Of a stretch of DNA of 36,022 nucleotides, positions 2,112-12,397 are shown piece after piece. Both the position numbers and the translations under genes were made by a program. The notes under the pieces are model-generated. The model saw nothing but the letters and a program-made list of their open reading frames with translations, was not told the origin of the DNA and did no database searches. The stretch covers positions 1 to 36,022 of IMG/VR virus record IMGVR_UViG_3300028388_003354; one strand, 5' to 3'. The number at the start of each line of letters is the position of its first letter. The stretch's first letter is position 1. Source of the stretch: a virus.

Positions 2112-4214
2112 ATGCAATTTCAAAAAAAGGACATATGGACGCGCCGGGAACGCGATGGACGTACCGCTCTATTTATTAGCCAAGAGTGGTTGATTGAGAA
2201 TGTAAAGGGATTGACAGAGTACATTTTGAGAGTCAAGTACCGATACAAATTCATCAATACTGTAACCGGCAAGAAACGCAGGAAGCAGAAGGTACTGCCC
2301 GATACCGGTGCCAGCTGGCGCTATGCCAGAAAGCACGGCACCTTCTACTACGACTACGACCGCCTGCCGGACAACCGGCAGAAGAAGCTACCGAGCAAAG
2401 AGGACATACTGGATATGTACGAAGCCGCTATGAAGAGCAATGCACAGAGCGGAATGGAGAGTGATCTGGATGATTATTTGAAAGACCTTACTCCATGGAT
2501 AAAAGCATATAGCGACTGTACTGATGTACAGGCTGACCACCTGGCCCGTGCCTGCGGCGTGATACAATTTGCCGCCCTGGAGATCAGCAGCAGAGAGCCT
2601 ACGAGTAGTAATGACTACTACCGCAACCTTTCTGCTATCATAAAGCGCAAGGGCTGGCAGTACCTGCCTAAAAACTACCGCCGCCTGAAGGATAAGATAA
2701 TGAAGGTGGTGAATGGTGCTCCGGTGACTAAGGTGATACGCTTGCCACGAAAGGGCAACAACAACCGGCAGCCATACAGTGATGAGCAGGTGATAGGCTG
2801 GATGATGTACTTGCGCAGCAGGCCGGAAAACTACAGCAACGCACACATAGCTCGCCGAGTGCTGAAGATGTGTGACATAGCCCGAAAGGAATCGCCCAGC
2901 TTCAGCTGGATAGAGCACTTCTTCTCGCGGCCAAAGAACAAATGGCTGACCGGAGCTGCTCGCCACCGAAGCGGCAGGAAGGGAGGCGACTACAAAGACT
3001 ACCTGCCGATAGCTGGTGCATTGTATGCTGGCGACTGCTGGCAGATGGATGGTACTCGTATAAACTTCATCCCGCACAAGAGCGCGGATGGTAGTGAAAA
3101 GAGCCTGATGATCATAGCGGTGCGCGATGTCCATAGTGGTGACATTATAGGCTACCACCTGGACACCAAGGAAGACCGATATGGCTACATACATGCCTTG
3201 AATATGGCGGTAGCTTCTACGGGGCACCTGCCCTATGAGCTGGTGCATGACCGGTTTCCTGGGCACAATACAGATGAGTGGACACTGATCACACAAAAGC
3301 TGAAGCGGGAAGGATGTAAGGTGACGGTGACCAGTACCGCCACTGGCAAGAGCCATGTGGAGCGCTGTTTTAGCACCCTTCAGGATGTGTTTATGCAGGA
3401 TTTCCCCTGGTACTATGGTCAGGGCATAATGAGCAGCCGCGAAGCTGCACACCGTAGCCCTGAGTACCTGGCCAGCGCAAAGAAACGCGCCCGCCGTGAA
3501 GGCTGGGGCTTTGATGATGCCTGGCGCGCTGCCAGTGCAGTGGTGGAAAACTACCGCAGTACTCCACTGAATGAATACAGCCGCCGCAATGCTACCGTGA
3601 GCGAAAGCCCCCGAGAGCTATACGATGCCAGCGAGACGCCGAACGTACATAGCATAGATGAATGGACAAGGGTGGAGCTATTTGGCACGCAGCGCAATGT
3701 GACTATCCGAAACAACGGGCTGATACGTATGCGCATACACAAAGCGGAATATGTGTACCGGATAGAGGACTACGAGATCATAAAGAACTACAAGAAAGTA
3801 ACCCTCTACTACGACCTGGACGACCTGGAAAAAGTATACCTCTTTGCTCCCAATGAGGATGAAGTGAATACACACTTCCTATGCGAAGTGATGGAAGAGC
3901 AAGCCGTGCAGTACTATGGGCCGGATGCCGACTTTAAGCGCATGGCAAAGATGAAAGCAGCCCGCCGCCGAGTACGCGAAAAGCGCGAGGCTGAACTGGA
4001 CGAGCTGGTGGCTGGTGCAGCGGATGAGGTGGCTCTGTTGATGCCTGCCGTAGTGGATAAAGTGACCGCTGATACCGCCGCCACTCGCTACCTGGAAGAG
4101 CGTGTGAGCCTATGGCAAGACCGTGGCGATGAGCGCCGGATGAACTTGCCGGAGCCACCTCCAGATGATGAGGATGACGACATAGACGATTTACCAATCA
4201 TAAGAAACTACTAA
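2112..4214 (+). CDS. MuA-like DDE transposase
   Basis: A 700-residue transposase that would cut and join phage ends during replicative transposition. The N-terminal 100 residues resemble the Mu-type HTH_Tnp_Mu DNA-binding region (SQEWL, K/R-rich, TGASWRYARKHG). The RNase H-like core is clear: Asp313 in WQMDGT, Asp380 in LPYELVHD and Glu417 in SHVERCF form the DDE triad, with the same 67-residue D-D spacing as MuA D269-D336. A beta-rich Mu-C-type domain follows at about 510-600, then a basic helix and an acidic tail (DDEDDDIDDLP) that could contact the MuB analogue. The open frame extends upstream to 2001, but I chose ATG 2112 because the upstream gene ends at 2092. Confidence 0.95.
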   Translation: MQFQKKDIWTRRERDGRTALFISQEWLIENVKGLTEYILRVKYRYKFINTVTGKKRRKQKVLPDTGASWRYARKHGTFYYDYDRLPDNRQKKLPSKEDILDMYEAAMKSNAQSGMESDLDDYLKDLTPWIKAYSDCTDVQADHLARACGVIQFAALEISSREPTSSNDYYRNLSAIIKRKGWQYLPKNYRRLKDKIMKVVNGAPVTKVIRLPRKGNNNRQPYSDEQVIGWMMYLRSRPENYSNAHIARRVLKMCDIARKESPSFSWIEHFFSRPKNKWLTGAARHRSGRKGGDYKDYLPIAGALYAGDCWQMDGTRINFIPHKSADGSEKSLMIIAVRDVHSGDIIGYHLDTKEDRYGYIHALNMAVASTGHLPYELVHDRFPGHNTDEWTLITQKLKREGCKVTVTSTATGKSHVERCFSTLQDVFMQDFPWYYGQGIMSSREAAHRSPEYLASAKKRARREGWGFDDAWRAASAVVENYRSTPLNEYSRRNATVSESPRELYDASETPNVHSIDEWTRVELFGTQRNVTIRNNGLIRMRIHKAEYVYRIEDYEIIKNYKKVTLYYDLDDLEKVYLFAPNEDEVNTHFLCEVMEEQAVQYYGPDADFKRMAKMKAARRRVREKREAELDELVAGAADEVALLMPAVVDKVTADTAATRYLEERVSLWQDRGDERRMNLPEPPPDDEDDDIDDLPIIRNY

Positions 4215-4229
4215 TCAACTATTACTACA

Positions 4230-5153
4230 ATGAGAACTGAACAGAAGCAAAAAATCCAGGCACTTGTAGCCGAAAATGTAGACACAATGGGTGGCCAGCG
4301 TGCCACCGCTACCCGAGTAGGCGTGAGTGCTGCTACTATCAGCCAGGTGCTAAACAACAACTGGGACAGGATAGCCGACAATATGTGGCGCAAGATAGGC
4401 GCTGCCCTGGGCTATACTGAAGAGGGCTGGAAGCTGGTGGACAATATCTTCAATACGCGAGTACTGGAGACCACCTTTCTCGATGCTAAAAAGCACAGCA
4501 TGATGATGTGTGTGAGCCACAAAGCTGGCTCTGGTAAGACGGCAGGCAGCCGCCTCTTCCTGGAAAAGTACAAGCGGCAGCATGTGTACTACATACACTG
4601 CCGGGAGTGGAGCGTGAAGCAGTTTTTGCGCGCCCTGGCGAAAACGCTGGGCATTGAGCAGCCGCGTGGTATCATCACCGCCGATGAGCTGATGGAGCTG
4701 ATCATTGATTTCTTTCTGGTGCGTGCCGGTGAGCACCCCCTGCTGATAGTGGACGAAGCGGACAAGCTGAAGGGCAGCGCCCTGCGCATGTTCATCCCTT
4801 TGTACAACGCTACGGAAGACCGAATGGGCCTGGTGATAATGGGCACGGAAAACCTGAGCGAAGAGATCAAGCGCGGAGTGCGATACAACAAGAAGGGCTA
4901 CGATGAAATAGATAGCCGCCTGGGCCGACAGTTTGTGCGCCTGTATGGTGCCAATAAGCAGGATGTGAAACGCATCTGCATAGCCAACGGCATAAGCAAC
5001 AAGCGGAAGCAAGAAGACATCTGGAAAGAGTGCAAACCGAAGGAGGTGTCTGTAGCAGGGCAGTTTGTCAAGATGATAGACGACCTGCGCCGACTGAAGC
5101 GCGTAATACAGCGCGAGCTGATAGAGCAGCATAGCAGTGTAACCAATAACTAA
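4230..5153 (+). CDS. MuB-like AAA+ ATPase, transposition target selector
   Basis: A 307-residue AAA+ ATPase. Residues 1-60 hold a lambda-repressor-like HTH (ATATRVGVSAATISQVLNNN), as in MuB. Walker A is AGSGKT (99-104) and Walker B LLIVDEAD (171-178), with GTEN (205-208) as a probable sensor. MuB binds DNA as ATP filaments, delivers target DNA to MuA and gives target immunity; the same role is inferred because the gene follows the transposase by 15 bases. The start has CAACTA eight bases upstream. Confidence 0.93.
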   Translation: MRTEQKQKIQALVAENVDTMGGQRATATRVGVSAATISQVLNNNWDRIADNMWRKIGAALGYTEEGWKLVDNIFNTRVLETTFLDAKKHSMMMCVSHKAGSGKTAGSRLFLEKYKRQHVYYIHCREWSVKQFLRALAKTLGIEQPRGIITADELMELIIDFFLVRAGEHPLLIVDEADKLKGSALRMFIPLYNATEDRMGLVIMGTENLSEEIKRGVRYNKKGYDEIDSRLGRQFVRLYGANKQDVKRICIANGISNKRKQEDIWKECKPKEVSVAGQFVKMIDDLRRLKRVIQRELIEQHSSVTNN

Positions 5154-5160
5154 CTATACG

Positions 5161-5637
5161 ATGCAAGAAGTGACCGAGATCACACGCGAAGAGGCGATAG
5201 CGGCGGCTGATGGCTACCGCAATGCCACACAGAAGATCGAAACGATCAACAGTAAATTGAAGAGTGACCAGGCGAAGTTAGCAGCCAAGTACGAAGATGA
5301 CCTGGCCAGCCTGGCGGAAGTGCAACAGGAATGCTCTGAAAAATTGGAGCTGTATGTAAATGCCAACCGGGACAACCTGCTGGGCGATGCACGCAGTACC
5401 GACTTTGCGGGCCTGAAGATTGGCTTCCGAAAGGCTACGGCTAAGCTGAAAACGCTGGGCCGCCTTACATGGGAGACTGTACTGGAACGAGTGAAAGGTA
5501 ATGCCAGCCACAAAGTTAACTTCCTGAAAGTGGAAGAGAAACTGGACAAGACCGCGCTGAAAAAAGCCGATGATGATACCCTGAAAGAGCTGGGTGTGAA
5601 GATCGAGCAGCCTGATAATTTCTTTGTAAAACTCTAA
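5161..5637 (+). CDS. Gam-like host-nuclease inhibitor
   Basis: A 158-residue protein with the layout of Mu Gam, the Ku-like dimer that coats double-strand DNA ends and protects them from exonucleases. Residues 15-65 form a charged coiled coil (KIETINSKLKSDQAKLAAKY), followed by the family-like stretch LKIGFRKATAKLKTLGRLTWE near 87-105 and a C-terminal EKLDKTALKKADDDTLKELGVKIEQP segment. It starts seven bases after the MuB-like gene, the same order (A, B, early accessory genes) as in Mu. Confidence 0.8.
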   Translation: MQEVTEITREEAIAAADGYRNATQKIETINSKLKSDQAKLAAKYEDDLASLAEVQQECSEKLELYVNANRDNLLGDARSTDFAGLKIGFRKATAKLKTLGRLTWETVLERVKGNASHKVNFLKVEEKLDKTALKKADDDTLKELGVKIEQPDNFFVKL

Positions 5638-5664
5638 CCCGAAAGGGCGAGCAACTACTACGCA

Positions 5665-6114
5665 ATGACTAAGAACTTCATACTACAACTGAAAACGCCA
5701 ACTAGCGGCACCTTCTCCATGATGTTGAAGTACAACCTGGAAGGAGAACTGGTGTATGCTGAGCTGCGCGACTTTCAGATGAGCATGACGGATAAGCAAC
5801 GGCAATGGCTTTGGGGGTTCATCCCCAAATGCCTGCCGGAGCTGGAGCGGGCAAAAGGCCCCTCTGTGAAGATTACAGAAGTGGAAACGGATTTGAGCTT
5901 TGAGGCTTTTTGGGAACTGTATGACCATAAAGTGGGCAACAAGAAGCGCGCCCAGTCGGCATGGAATAAGCTGAACGACAACACGCGTGCCCTGGTGATG
6001 GTAAAGGTACGAGAGTACAACTATTACATGGCTCATGTGACCCACGCAAAGGTGTTTCCAGAGCGCTTTTTGGCTCAAAAACGCTACGAGAATGACTTTA
6101 AAGTACCCCACTAA
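5665..6114 (+). CDS. DnaT-like/primosomal accessory protein (tentative)
   Basis: A 149-residue early protein. Residues 72-105 read FEAFWELYDHKVGNKKRAQSAW, close to the FxxFWxxYPxKxxKxxAxxAW pattern of phage replication and DnaT-like proteins. The N-terminal half is beta-rich and unfamiliar. Mu replication needs the host PriA-DnaT restart system, so a DnaT-like helper would fit, but this is inference from one motif. CAACTA lies seven bases before the ATG. Confidence 0.55.
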   Translation: MTKNFILQLKTPTSGTFSMMLKYNLEGELVYAELRDFQMSMTDKQRQWLWGFIPKCLPELERAKGPSVKITEVETDLSFEAFWELYDHKVGNKKRAQSAWNKLNDNTRALVMVKVREYNYYMAHVTHAKVFPERFLAQKRYENDFKVPH

Positions 6115-6146
6115 ATGCGTTTTACCGCACTATAAACTGTATTAAA

Positions 6147-6572
6147 ATGCTTGATAAACGCCGAATAATACAACTCCATGCTGCCTTAAATGCCGCGCAG
6201 GCACTGCCTTTCAAGGCGGATATGCTGGCAGCGTATGGGGTAGAAAGCTCTAAAGAGCTGACCGCCGCGCAGGCAGATGAGCTGATAGGCCGCCTCAATG
6301 ATATGCAAGAAGAGCGTAAGAAAGAGGCACCCAAAGCAACCAGAAAGCTGCGCAGCCAGGTGCTGACGCTGATCAACCAGCTGGGGATATACGCCGACAA
6401 CGGAGACTGGAGTAAGGTGAACCAGTTCCTGCTAAAACCAAAGATAGCGGGCAAGCTGCTGTATGAAATGGATAAGGCAGAGCTGGAAGCACTAAAGCGC
6501 AAGCTGCACGCTATGGTGCGCAAGCGCGAGAAACAGATACAAGAAGAGAATTTTAAAGCGACTAACAACTAG
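6147..6572 (+). CDS. GemA-like (gp16-type) protein (tentative)
   Basis: A 141-residue helical, charged protein. It opens with RRIIQLHAALNAA and ends with a helix-rich part (LRSQVLTLINQLGI, DWSKVNQFLLKP, LEALKRKLHAMVRKREK). This two-part layout resembles GemA/DUF1018 proteins of Mu-like phages, which affect host supercoiling and gene expression. The resemblance is general and I cannot confirm it by alignment. The position in the early operon agrees. Confidence 0.5.
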   Translation: MLDKRRIIQLHAALNAAQALPFKADMLAAYGVESSKELTAAQADELIGRLNDMQEERKKEAPKATRKLRSQVLTLINQLGIYADNGDWSKVNQFLLKPKIAGKLLYEMDKAELEALKRKLHAMVRKREKQIQEENFKATNN

Positions 6573-6575
6573 CAA

Positions 6576-6953
6576 ATGGCACAGCTACAAAAGCAATCGC
6601 TCACATTGACCCATGATGGGCTGCAAGCACTCAACGGATGGCTACAGTACATCTTTCATCAGCCAGCTGGTAGCAACTACTATCACCTGATGTTGGTGGG
6701 CGTTCTGGGTGAGCTGTACAAAAAGAAGGTATACCCGAAGACGGCTTTTGCCCAGCCACAGGTGAAGATAAAGCTGGACGAGGTGCAAACGCTGGCTTTG
6801 TCCATCAGCTTCATGGTGTATGATTTTACGGATGCACCAATGGATGTGCAGGCGGAGCTGTTTTCGGTATACCAATCACTACCAGCACTTCGGTACGACC
6901 AGGAAAGCTTATTCCTTCCACCACAAATAGCAACTGTTGATGAATGCGAATGA
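6576..6953 (+). CDS. Hypothetical early protein
   Basis: A 125-residue protein I do not recognise. It looks alpha-helical with amphipathic segments (LNGWLQYIFHQ, LALSISFMVYDF) and has no signal peptide or obvious catalytic motif. It starts three bases after the previous stop with CAACTA four bases upstream of the ATG, and its stop overlaps the next start, so it is tightly coupled within the early operon. Confidence 0.65.
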   Translation: MAQLQKQSLTLTHDGLQALNGWLQYIFHQPAGSNYYHLMLVGVLGELYKKKVYPKTAFAQPQVKIKLDEVQTLALSISFMVYDFTDAPMDVQAELFSVYQSLPALRYDQESLFLPPQIATVDECE

Positions 6954-7170
6954 AGAACCAAGGGTGATGGAGAGTGTGGCCCGGCGAGCACTGGAGGTGC
7001 AGAAAGTATACCTGGAGCATAAAGAACCGGATTTGCCTAACACTTACATCTACCGCCGTTACATCTACCCCCGCTTTCATATATCAGAACGCACTTTCTA
7101 CCGATACCTGAGAAGGAATGCTAAACGGCAGGTGCGTAAAATTGAAAATCAAACCAATCATGAAGAATAG
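6940..7170 (+). CDS. Small basic protein with HTH-like C-terminus
   Basis: A 76-residue basic protein. The segment ISERTFYRYLRRNAKRQ near residues 48-64 looks like the recognition part of a helix-turn-helix, so DNA binding is likely. I chose ATG 6940; TTG at 6937 is directly before it in frame. It overlaps the upstream gene by 14 bases and the downstream lipoprotein gene by 11. A late activator of the Mor type cannot be excluded, but nothing specific supports it. Confidence 0.6.
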   Translation: MNANEEPRVMESVARRALEVQKVYLEHKEPDLPNTYIYRRYIYPRFHISERTFYRYLRRNAKRQVRKIENQTNHEE

Positions 7171-8059
7171 ACAACTATTACTGATCATTGCCGCTCTGCT
7201 GCTTTTGCTGCTGGAGTCTTGCAGGACACTGGAAGAACGATGTGCCGAGCGATTTCCTACTCAGGTGGAAGAGAAGATAGTGGAGCGCACCTATGTGGAT
7301 ACGCTCATATTGCCCTGGCATTCGGTAGAGTACCTGGATACTACGGTTTGCCCGCCGAGCAGGGATACAGTGCTGAAAATAAAAACCGTGACCAGGAAGC
7401 TGCCAGGCGACACGGTGTACTACGAGTATATGTGTATTGATACACAGATCGTGTACCGAGACCAAGCCAAACTCAACTACCTACAGCAGGTAGTGAATGT
7501 GCAGCGGGCAAAGATGGAAACAAAATCTAACAGAATGAACCGGCTGGGCTGGGTGATTGGAGCGTGTGGCAAAGTAGGTACAGCAAAAGTAACGGACGCC
7601 CGAAGAGCAGTAGCAATGATTGGCAAGCAGCAGGGCTACTCGCTCAACAAGATAGGCAGAGCGATAAATAAGCACCATTCATCGGTGCATCATTATCAGG
7701 TCACCGGGCAGTCTTTTGTGAATCAGGACGACCCATTTAAGGGCAAGCTGCATGACACCGTAAGAGAACTTAATATAAACATAGCAACTATTATGAAATC
7801 ATTTTCCTTTGAGCCTGGGCCACCTTTATGGCCTGAGCAGTACACCGATTACTTCACCTTTGATGTGAATACCGAAGAGCACAAGATTGCAAATTGTATA
7901 AAGGAGGCGGTAGCCGAGGCAGCAGAGCCTACCTATGAGACCAGAGGGGTGCGGCACCTGTTTACCGACAACCAGGTGCTGGTAGATGAGCTGAAAGATG
8001 CTGCCTATGGCTACGAAATCCCATTTCAGCACGTACACGTTCCTGAGCACTATGGGTAG
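7160..8059 (+). CDS. Lipoprotein / DnaA domain IV-like chimera
   Basis: A 299-residue protein with three dissimilar parts in one frame. Residues 1-21 are a lipoprotein signal (hydrophobic run, then LLESC with Cys21), and 22-110 is a beta-type stretch with repeated DT-V-Y motifs like small phage spanin-type lipoproteins. Residues about 125-205 resemble the DnaA C-terminal DNA-binding domain: DARRAVAMIGKQQGYSLNKI then GRAINKHHSSVHHY matches the R..A..L...S...IG..FG.RDHSTVxHA pattern. Residues 212-299 are an unknown acidic part beginning at an in-frame ATG (7793) preceded by CAACTA. Export of a lipoprotein conflicts with DNA binding in the cytoplasm, so this may be a gene fusion or an ORF with internal starts (ATG 7535, ATG 7793). 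Confidence 0.7.
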   Translation: MKNRQLLLIIAALLLLLLESCRTLEERCAERFPTQVEEKIVERTYVDTLILPWHSVEYLDTTVCPPSRDTVLKIKTVTRKLPGDTVYYEYMCIDTQIVYRDQAKLNYLQQVVNVQRAKMETKSNRMNRLGWVIGACGKVGTAKVTDARRAVAMIGKQQGYSLNKIGRAINKHHSSVHHYQVTGQSFVNQDDPFKGKLHDTVRELNINIATIMKSFSFEPGPPLWPEQYTDYFTFDVNTEEHKIANCIKEAVAEAAEPTYETRGVRHLFTDNQVLVDELKDAAYGYEIPFQHVHVPEHYG

Positions 8060-8711
8060 AGTGAGCCGAGCGATAGGAGTAAACGACCTGCTGAGTAAGA
8101 ACTTCGTCACTTATAAATTTGAAGGCCAGTGGCTGGAAAGCTTTGGCGAAGTGGAGCGCAACTTCCGAATGCTCATATACGGAGATAGCGGAAATGGAAA
8201 GACAGAGTTTGTGGTGCAGTTTGCAAAGTACCTGGCTGGATTTGGGAAGGTATACCTGAACAGTTTTGAGCAAGGAATGAGCAAGAGCTTACAGTCGGCT
8301 TTTCTGCGTAACAATATGCAGGATGTCCAGGGTAAGCTCATACTGGGAGACAAAGATACCTTCCAGAGCTTGTATAAGCGTATGGGCAGCAGGAATAGCC
8401 CTAAGTTTTGCATAATAGACAGCCTGGACTATATGAACCTGACCACAGACCAGTACAAGCAACTGGTGGAGAGGTATTCGCACAAGAGCTTCATCATCAT
8501 CAGCTGGAGCGCTGGGCGAAAACCGAAAATGCAAGCCGCTAAGGATATTGAATACATGGCAGATATAAAAGTGCGTGTGCATGAGTACAAAGCTTATCCA
8601 CGCAGCCGCTTTGGCGGCAATAAGCCTTTTGTCATCTGGCCGGAGTACTGGAAGGAGAAACGAGAAAAAGCAGAACAGGCAGCTAAGGAAGCTGCACAAA
8701 AAGCCGAGTAA
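8052..8711 (+). CDS. RecA-fold ATPase, phage AAA_24/Sak4-like
   Basis: A 219-residue nucleotide-binding protein. Walker A is GDSGNGKT (44-51) and Walker B KFCIIDSLDY (118-127). The overall plan (small P-loop protein, IISWSAGRKPK segment, basic C-terminal tail rich in K, A and E) fits phage single-strand annealing or RecA-like ATPases of the AAA_24/Sak4 group. I placed the start at ATG 8052, giving an 8-base overlap with the gene before; the frame is open upstream to 7998. A role in phage DNA recombination or replication is inferred. Confidence 0.75.
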   Translation: MGRVSRAIGVNDLLSKNFVTYKFEGQWLESFGEVERNFRMLIYGDSGNGKTEFVVQFAKYLAGFGKVYLNSFEQGMSKSLQSAFLRNNMQDVQGKLILGDKDTFQSLYKRMGSRNSPKFCIIDSLDYMNLTTDQYKQLVERYSHKSFIIISWSAGRKPKMQAAKDIEYMADIKVRVHEYKAYPRSRFGGNKPFVIWPEYWKEKREKAEQAAKEAAQKAE

Positions 8712-10946: not shown

Positions 10947-11735
10947 ATGAAACTCAACGACTACAATCTGATAATAGTAAATTCCTCTGGTGGCAAGGAT
11001 AGTCTTTGCGCACTATGGGAAGTATGCCGACTGGCAAATGAACAGGCATACCCGATTGATCAGGTTGTAGTCTCACATCAAGACTTAGGCTATGCCGAAT
11101 GGCCGGGCACTAAGGAGCTGGCAAAAGAGCAGGCAGATATATTTGGCTGTGATTTTTACGTGACCCGCCGCCGAAATAAAGATGGATACGAAGAGACCCT
11201 TTTGGAGTATGTGTTGAGAAGAGGTAAATGGCCCAGCAATAAGCAGCGCTGGTGTACTTCTGACTTCAAGCGTGCACCAGGTGCCAGGGTGGTGACCGCT
11301 CTGACAAAAGATATGGGGAAATGCAAAGTATTGTATGTATTTGGATTCAGGGCAGAAGAAAGCCCGGCACGTAGCAGAAGAAAGCCTTTCAGATTAAATA
11401 CAAGACTTACTACCAAGCGTAGAAAGGTGTACGACTGGCTGCCTATACACACCTGGAATATGGAAAAAGTATGGGCTACCATTAAAGATAACAACCTACC
11501 GTATCACAAAGCTTATGATTTAGGTATGCCACGCCTGAGTTGTTGCTTTTGCATATTCTCTCCTTTTGATGCACTGGTTACTGCCGGGTATGCTAATCCA
11601 GAGTTATTAGATAGATACGTTGCGGTGGAAGAAGAGATAGGGCACACGTTTCGTAATGGATTTGCGATAAGCGAAGTAAAGGATGCTATTGAAAAAGGAT
11701 ACAAACCTGATAAGATCAAAGATTGGGTAATGTAA
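10947..11735 (+). CDS. PP-loop (PAPS reductase/DndC-like) protein
   Basis: A 262-residue protein with the adenylating PP-loop SSGGKDS at 13-19. Other family-like parts are NKQRWCTSDFKRAPG near 93-107 and RLSCCFCIFSP near 193-203. Members of the PAPS reductase/N-type ATP-PPase group reduce sulfate, load sulfur onto tRNA or install phosphorothioate in DNA (DndC). Which applies here is not decidable; no DndB, D or E partner is visible. Genes of this class occur in phage early regions, perhaps for nucleic acid modification. I chose ATG 10947 over GTG 10941. Confidence 0.8.
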   Translation: MKLNDYNLIIVNSSGGKDSLCALWEVCRLANEQAYPIDQVVVSHQDLGYAEWPGTKELAKEQADIFGCDFYVTRRRNKDGYEETLLEYVLRRGKWPSNKQRWCTSDFKRAPGARVVTALTKDMGKCKVLYVFGFRAEESPARSRRKPFRLNTRLTTKRRKVYDWLPIHTWNMEKVWATIKDNNLPYHKAYDLGMPRLSCCFCIFSPFDALVTAGYANPELLDRYVAVEEEIGHTFRNGFAISEVKDAIEKGYKPDKIKDWVM

Positions 11736-11752
11736 ATAAACAACCACCTACT

Positions 11753-12397
11753 ATGTTAAACAAAATGATATTCCTCGATGCCGGACATGGCGGAATAGAC
11801 GCCAACGGAAAATATGTCACCGCTCCAGGCAAACAATTTAACCATACGATTGAAAGCCCTATGGCTTTTCACCGGTTTGGCTGGTTTTATGAAGGCGTGT
11901 GGAATCGTGCCTTCACTGACCGGGTAGCCTACAAGTTAAAGCAGATAGGTATCCCGTACATCTACCTGCATCATCCTTATCTCGACACTCCACTGGAAGA
12001 GCGTGTGGAGAAAGCCAACTGGTATCACTGGAACTTTCAAAATGGCATTCTGATAAGTAACCACGCAAATGCTTCTGGCAACCACAAGGCGAGAGGATTT
12101 GAAGTATATACTAGCCGTGGTGAGACGCATTCTGACACGATAGCTGAGTACGACTGGCGCAATGTGCGCGGCCTGATGGAAAGCCGTATACGCTACCGCA
12201 AAGATACCAGCGATGGAGATCACGACAAGGAATCGCGCTTCTTTATGCTTACGAAGACGGTAATGCCTGCTATTTTGGTGGAGCACCTCTTTTTCGATAA
12301 CTATGATGATGCGCGGCTGCTGATGGATGAGGACATCATGGATCGATTTACTGAAGCGCAGGTGCGTACTATCATTGAATACTTAAATATTACATGA
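11753..12397 (+). CDS. N-acetylmuramoyl-L-alanine amidase endolysin
   Basis: A 214-residue amidase_3-type enzyme that would cleave the amide between muramic acid and L-Ala of peptidoglycan for lysis. Zinc ligands are visible: His in FLDAGHGG (13), Glu in HTIESP and His in SNHANASG; catalytic Glu in AILVEHLFFDN near the C-terminus. There is no signal peptide, so a holin or other export route is needed; a 36-residue membrane peptide is encoded one base downstream. ATG 11753 is preferred over the upstream frame from 11723 that overlaps the PP-loop gene. Confidence 0.88.
   Translation: MLNKMIFLDAGHGGIDANGKYVTAPGKQFNHTIESPMAFHRFGWFYEGVWNRAFTDRVAYKLKQIGIPYIYLHHPYLDTPLEERVEKANWYHWNFQNGILISNHANASGNHKARGFEVYTSRGETHSDTIAEYDWRNVRGLMESRIRYRKDTSDGDHDKESRFFMLTKTVMPAILVEHLFFDNYDDARLLMDEDIMDRFTEAQVRTIIEYLNIT

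Follow-up and report, generated by a model that had tools for sequence, protein, structure and literature searches.

The lysis genes of Winogradskyella phage Peternella_1, a Mu-like transposable phage of Bacteroidota, have been reported as an amidase and a holin, with no spanin among them, and unimolecular spanins (u-spanins) have been annotated in flavobacterial phages (PMC8776804). U-spanins of the T1 gp11 type combine a lipoprotein signal, a beta-rich periplasmic region and a C-terminal transmembrane domain (TMD), and all 58 catalogued members are devoid of periplasmic cysteines (PMC6139136). A further group of described proteins comprises DnaA, with its domain IV, and the phage DnaA-like proteins (phrog_27829). 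The stretch of DNA analysed here (IMG/VR virus record IMGVR_UViG_3300028388_003354; 36,022 nt, hereafter the window) belongs to a Mu-like phage that shares the Mu-like layout and a related ATPase with Bacteroidota phages such as Peternella_1, and the hosts of its group are probably Bacteroidota. The group differs from Peternella_1 in encoding a u-spanin-like lipoprotein, whereas the reported lysis set of the latter has no spanin.

In the window, a frame on the plus strand, to which all window features given below belong, is open throughout from 7160 (or from 7118) to 8059, as the initial annotation stated, with a 299-aa product predicted from 7160. It comprises a lipoprotein part (residues 1-135; 7160-7564), a remainder of a DnaA domain IV-like protein (residues 137-211; 7568-7792) and an 88-aa third segment (7793-8059) whose family is unassigned. 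Upstream lies a small conserved HTH-like gene (6940-7170), found in the same place in four related loci (L002, L011, L031 and L079); it overlaps the start at 7160 by 11 nt, which is exactly the arrangement in L011. Downstream, an ATPase gene (phrog_6891; 8052-8711) overlaps the fused frame by 8 nt. Is this frame a new type of exported DNA-binding replication protein, or have separate genes been run together? Both possibilities had been raised by the initial annotation, together with that of internal starts.

Gene order in the relatives

When the 299-aa fusion was used as a query, no relatives were found in IMG/VR, genome_contigs or phages, and the fused form is known from the window contig only. 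Relatives were reached via the neighbouring ATPase, which led to L002 (79% identical), L003 and L004 and then to 37 IMG/VR loci. Scanning of the ATPase loci with the separate parts of the fusion revealed all three parts in L002 and L011, the lipoprotein and the third segment in L031, and the lipoprotein and a DnaA-like match in L014; L079 was added through a lipoprotein profile. The module is missing from L003 and L004, and L006 and L007 were rejected as unrelated phages with DnaA-IV-like proteins. The lipoprotein and third-segment profiles gave no match in 396 Bacteroidota genomes, a set without a positive control.

In all five relatives, the lipoprotein is a gene of its own with its own stop codon, separate from the DnaA-like gene, and in four of them the order is lipoprotein, DnaA-domain-IV-like gene, third segment. 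In L002 (lipoprotein 4923-5402) and L011 (2729-3193), a hairpin is followed by the DnaA-like part and the third segment in one frame (5472-6050 and 3287-3874, respectively). In L031, the lipoprotein (4619-5098) and a hairpin precede a DnaA-like gene ending at 5709 and a separate third-segment gene (5706-5993) that overlaps it at ATGA. L079 contains the lipoprotein (4307-4786), hairpins, a diverged DnaA-IV-like ORF (4988-5473) and a separate ORF ending at 5867, in which 'PPLWGLSWRFAFSFD' was judged by eye to be similar to the third segment. In L014, the lipoprotein ends at 5826 and is followed by the ATPase (5986-6636) and then by a DnaA-like gene ending at 7025. In 5/5 relatives, the lipoprotein stop is followed by perfect hairpin stems of 7-10 bp, with a T-run after them in four; the stems were located by script, as a terminator scan misses them (loops over its limit, or no T-run).

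The proposal of fused genes thus holds for the junction between the lipoprotein and the DnaA-like part. In the ATPase tree, the window and L002 group together (97/94) within a clade (100/100) that also includes L011 and L031, the last on a long branch and less surely placed. Since the other members of this clade have separate genes, a single loss on the short branch of the window explains the data. We estimate a probability of roughly 0.7 that the frame 7160-8059 represents two or three adjacent genes joined by a deletion.

The DnaA-like part and the third segment

Taken alone, the window matches the DnaA C-terminal family weakly (Bac_DnaA_C, PF08299: E = 0.003; 18-20.7 bits, with the cutoff at 31.5; coverage of profile positions 22-64 of 69), and its frame also matches HTH_38 (4e-5) and phrog_27829, 'DnaA-like replication initiation protein' (0.002). 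The homologous L002 protein, which carries the full-length domain, matches the same family strongly (E = 2.5e-14, 53.5 bits, positions 1-68 of 69), and its model, with pLDDT of 91-97 over residues 11-90, fits the DnaA domain IV structures 1j1v and 3pvp with TM scores of 0.91-0.92 (M. tuberculosis 0.92, E. coli 0.91). Because of this homologue, the similarity seen in the window can be regarded as real, and profile and model comparisons together identify the middle of the frame as a genuine relative of DnaA domain IV. The DnaA-like segment of the initial annotation is therefore upheld, with an extent of residues 137-211 in place of 125-205.

Unlike DnaA, this protein carries no AAA+ domain, and its fold is incomplete in the window. 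The DnaA-like part of the window starts at the counterpart of Gly27 of L002, so that the first two helices (7-18 and 22-26 in the L002 model) are lost, while the basic-loop region, the next helix and the helix-turn-helix are kept. In the basic loop, GKSRKSR of L002 is aligned with GKVGTAK of the window, which places a Gly opposite what we take to be the minor-groove Arg of DnaA; further on, the window has NKHHSSV where L002 has NRDHSTV. Identity is 31% between the window remainder and L002 and 22% between L002 and L011 (19-31% across the window, L002 and L011), and no relaxed selection or decay of the remainder was measurable beyond the rapid change that this gene shows in general, as would fit a recent event.

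One reading is that the fusion functions as a single protein, either an outer-membrane lipoprotein with the DnaA-like and third segments as a periplasmic tail or a membrane-tethered DNA-binding protein. The frame has been kept open and the DnaA remainder is not visibly decayed, but this form has been sighted once, structural elements are lost from both partners at the junction, the DnaA fold is truncated and the Gly replaces the aligned Arg; we consider this reading highly improbable. Equally remote in our view is that the fusion is real and was kept, whether as a lipoprotein-anchored DnaA-like tail that tethers DNA of the phage or its host at the envelope, or as an operon merger selected via terminator loss.

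The idea that DnaA targets are present found no support, as DnaA boxes are not enriched: TTATNCACA is not in excess in the window, nor is TTATCCACA, with one mismatch allowed, in L002. Among the relatives, the DnaA-like protein diverges fast (L011 3287-3607, L031 5230-5709, L079 4988-5473), and its RDHST-type recognition motif has been lost in several of them. Judging from these sequences, DnaA-box binding may thus not be the general role of this protein.

The third segment aligns from its own Met in the window (7793), L002 (5787) and L011 (3608), and its identity among these three (48-56%) is above that of the DnaA part. Proteins of this kind are 88-95 aa long (window 7793-8059; L002 5787-6050; L011 3608-3874; L031 5706-5993), lie directly before the ATPase and share a conserved C-terminal EIxFxHxHxP-like motif; no convincing Pfam or PHROG match was found for them. 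The in-frame joining of the DnaA-like part and the third segment is common to the window, L002 and L011; it therefore predates the lipoprotein fusion and is independent of it.

Before the internal ATG at 7793, the CAACTA leader noted initially is present (7785-7790). In the window phage, this motif is enriched ahead of gene starts, preceding 4 of 13 starts at a distance of no more than about 15 nt (background 0.016; p about 4e-5); its copies at 1686, 4216, 5652 and 6566 precede starts at 1694, 4230, 5665 and 6576. CAACTA may therefore be a translation leader in this phage; at the leader position before the third segment, L011 has GCAACTACTATCGAC. Since L031 and L079 encode the third segment separately and CAACTA is kept before 7793, translation of this segment probably still begins at its own ATG, in line with the proposed internal start.

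Another internal start, at 7535, might preserve a cytosolic product of 174 aa comprising the DnaA remainder and the third segment, with only the lipoprotein damaged, which would be compatible with a real deletion. The upstream sequence is A-rich (30% GC) and the two segments share one frame in L002 and L011 as well. However, the CAACTA leader is absent there and a protein made from this start would still be devoid of the first two domain IV helices, so that we regard such a product as doubtful.

The lipoprotein part

The lipoprotein part consists of a signal peptide and a periplasmic region and is homologous to the lipoproteins of all five relatives. Of the lipobox lipoprotein described initially, the signal sequence stands, and the lipobox is present in an atypical form, LESC (7211-7222; Cys21), with Glu at -2, whereas those of the relatives are of the canonical type (FSAC, LASC, LTGC, ISAC and LASC). 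Homology reaches residue 135, where the C-terminal TMD of the relatives starts. Hydropathy peaks of this TMD (KD19) are 2.15 in L002, 2.78 in L011 and 2.28 in L031, with none in the fusion; the L079 and L014 lipoproteins also have hydrophobic C-terminal stretches, by sequence. The L011 model shows beta strands followed by a long helix, with a mean pLDDT of only 65.

Are the intact lipoproteins u-spanins? The relatives fit the lipoprotein signal and the C-terminal TMD of this class and, weakly, its beta-rich periplasmic domain, and on this layout we lean slightly towards a u-spanin. It is also conceivable, though we rate it as somewhat improbable, that the lipoprotein is not a spanin and acts as an early envelope protein, for example a superinfection-exclusion lipoprotein, which would likewise be compatible with a real deletion. 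In its favour, periplasmic cysteines occur beyond the lipobox, for example in a DTTxCPP motif conserved in all six lipoproteins, and such cysteines are absent from the 58 catalogued u-spanins; moreover, the gene closes the early block (MuA, MuB, Gam, GemA), away from the amidase (11756-12397) and not beside holin or endolysin genes. No convincing spanin-family match was obtained for the lipoprotein, and Foldseek with its model gave no match below 0.001. Against it stand the u-spanin layout itself (lipobox, predicted beta-rich middle and C-terminal TMD) and the result of a scan of the window, in which this was the sole lipobox ORF found with the pattern used. The window copy departs further from u-spanins in its missing TMD and atypical lipobox.

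The amidase gene (PF01520) is directly preceded by a PAPS-reductase-like gene (PF01507, 6.8e-14; 10947-11735).

The junction and the missing stretch

The junction falls at Ala135-Cys136-Gly137 (7562-7570), where lipoprotein homology stops and DnaA homology starts. Compared with the two closest relatives, the window is devoid of 216 nt (L002) or 249 nt (L011) at this point. The absent stretch contains the lipoprotein TMD and stop codon, the hairpin, whose perfect stems measure 8 and 10 bp in L002 and L011, and the beginning of the DnaA-like gene, with its start and 26-29 N-terminal residues, so that both partners are truncated at the junction. At the window junction there is no structure (z = +1.09). 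In five relatives the partners are distinct genes, and exactly these elements are missing from the window.

Another important question is whether this gap could have been produced by assembly, the genes being separate in the phage and the assembler or short reads having skipped the hairpin-containing stretch. The fused form has been seen once, which leaves room for an assembly gap; the junction 29-mer has no second occurrence in IMG/VR, where near-identical records may be omitted, and the hairpin lies exactly within the missing stretch in 5/5 relatives. The gap nevertheless reaches well past the hairpin into coding sequence on both sides, and the early genes of the window are otherwise colinear with L002 and essentially full length, with no other damaged gene seen there. 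We consider an artefact unlikely.

The preferred explanation remains a deletion of ~220-250 bp on the window branch. It would have taken the C-terminal TMD and stop codon of the lipoprotein together with the terminator-like hairpin, would have cut the start and the two leading helices from the DnaA-domain-IV-like gene, and would have joined the two frames in frame by chance. When deletions with ends in the same two regions were simulated, one third gave an open in-frame fusion; the open frame thus needs no selection and is no sign of it. The intact frame and the lack of clear decay in the DnaA remainder agree with a recent deletion, but retained function would also account for them. The fusion probably arose by accident in this lineage, or else reflects an assembly gap, and the proposed new exported replication protein is not borne out, as the fusion occurs in the window contig only, with both partners truncated.

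With partner functions read from sequence, the consequences of such a deletion can be outlined. If the lipoprotein is a u-spanin, the fused product would have no inner-membrane anchor and would probably not work as a spanin, and the truncated DnaA-like segment would be exported or misfolded if made from 7160. The third segment would still be made in the cytoplasm from the ATG at 7793 with its CAACTA leader, and, in the absence of the hairpin, transcripts from upstream could continue into the genes for the third segment and the ATPase.

A single deletion can thus merge adjacent phage genes into a plausible but misleading combination of domains, a pitfall when the domain architectures of metagenomic phages are surveyed. 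The comparison also defines a small uncharacterised module in this Mu-like group, consisting of a u-spanin-like lipoprotein, a hairpin, a DnaA-domain-IV-like protein, an 88-aa protein and the ATPase. In two of the other ATPase loci, L029 (6001-6573) and L019 (6001-6579), the ATPase frame contains a single in-frame stop, located at a conserved Trp position in L029, which could be a point mutation, a sequencing error or a case of recoding.
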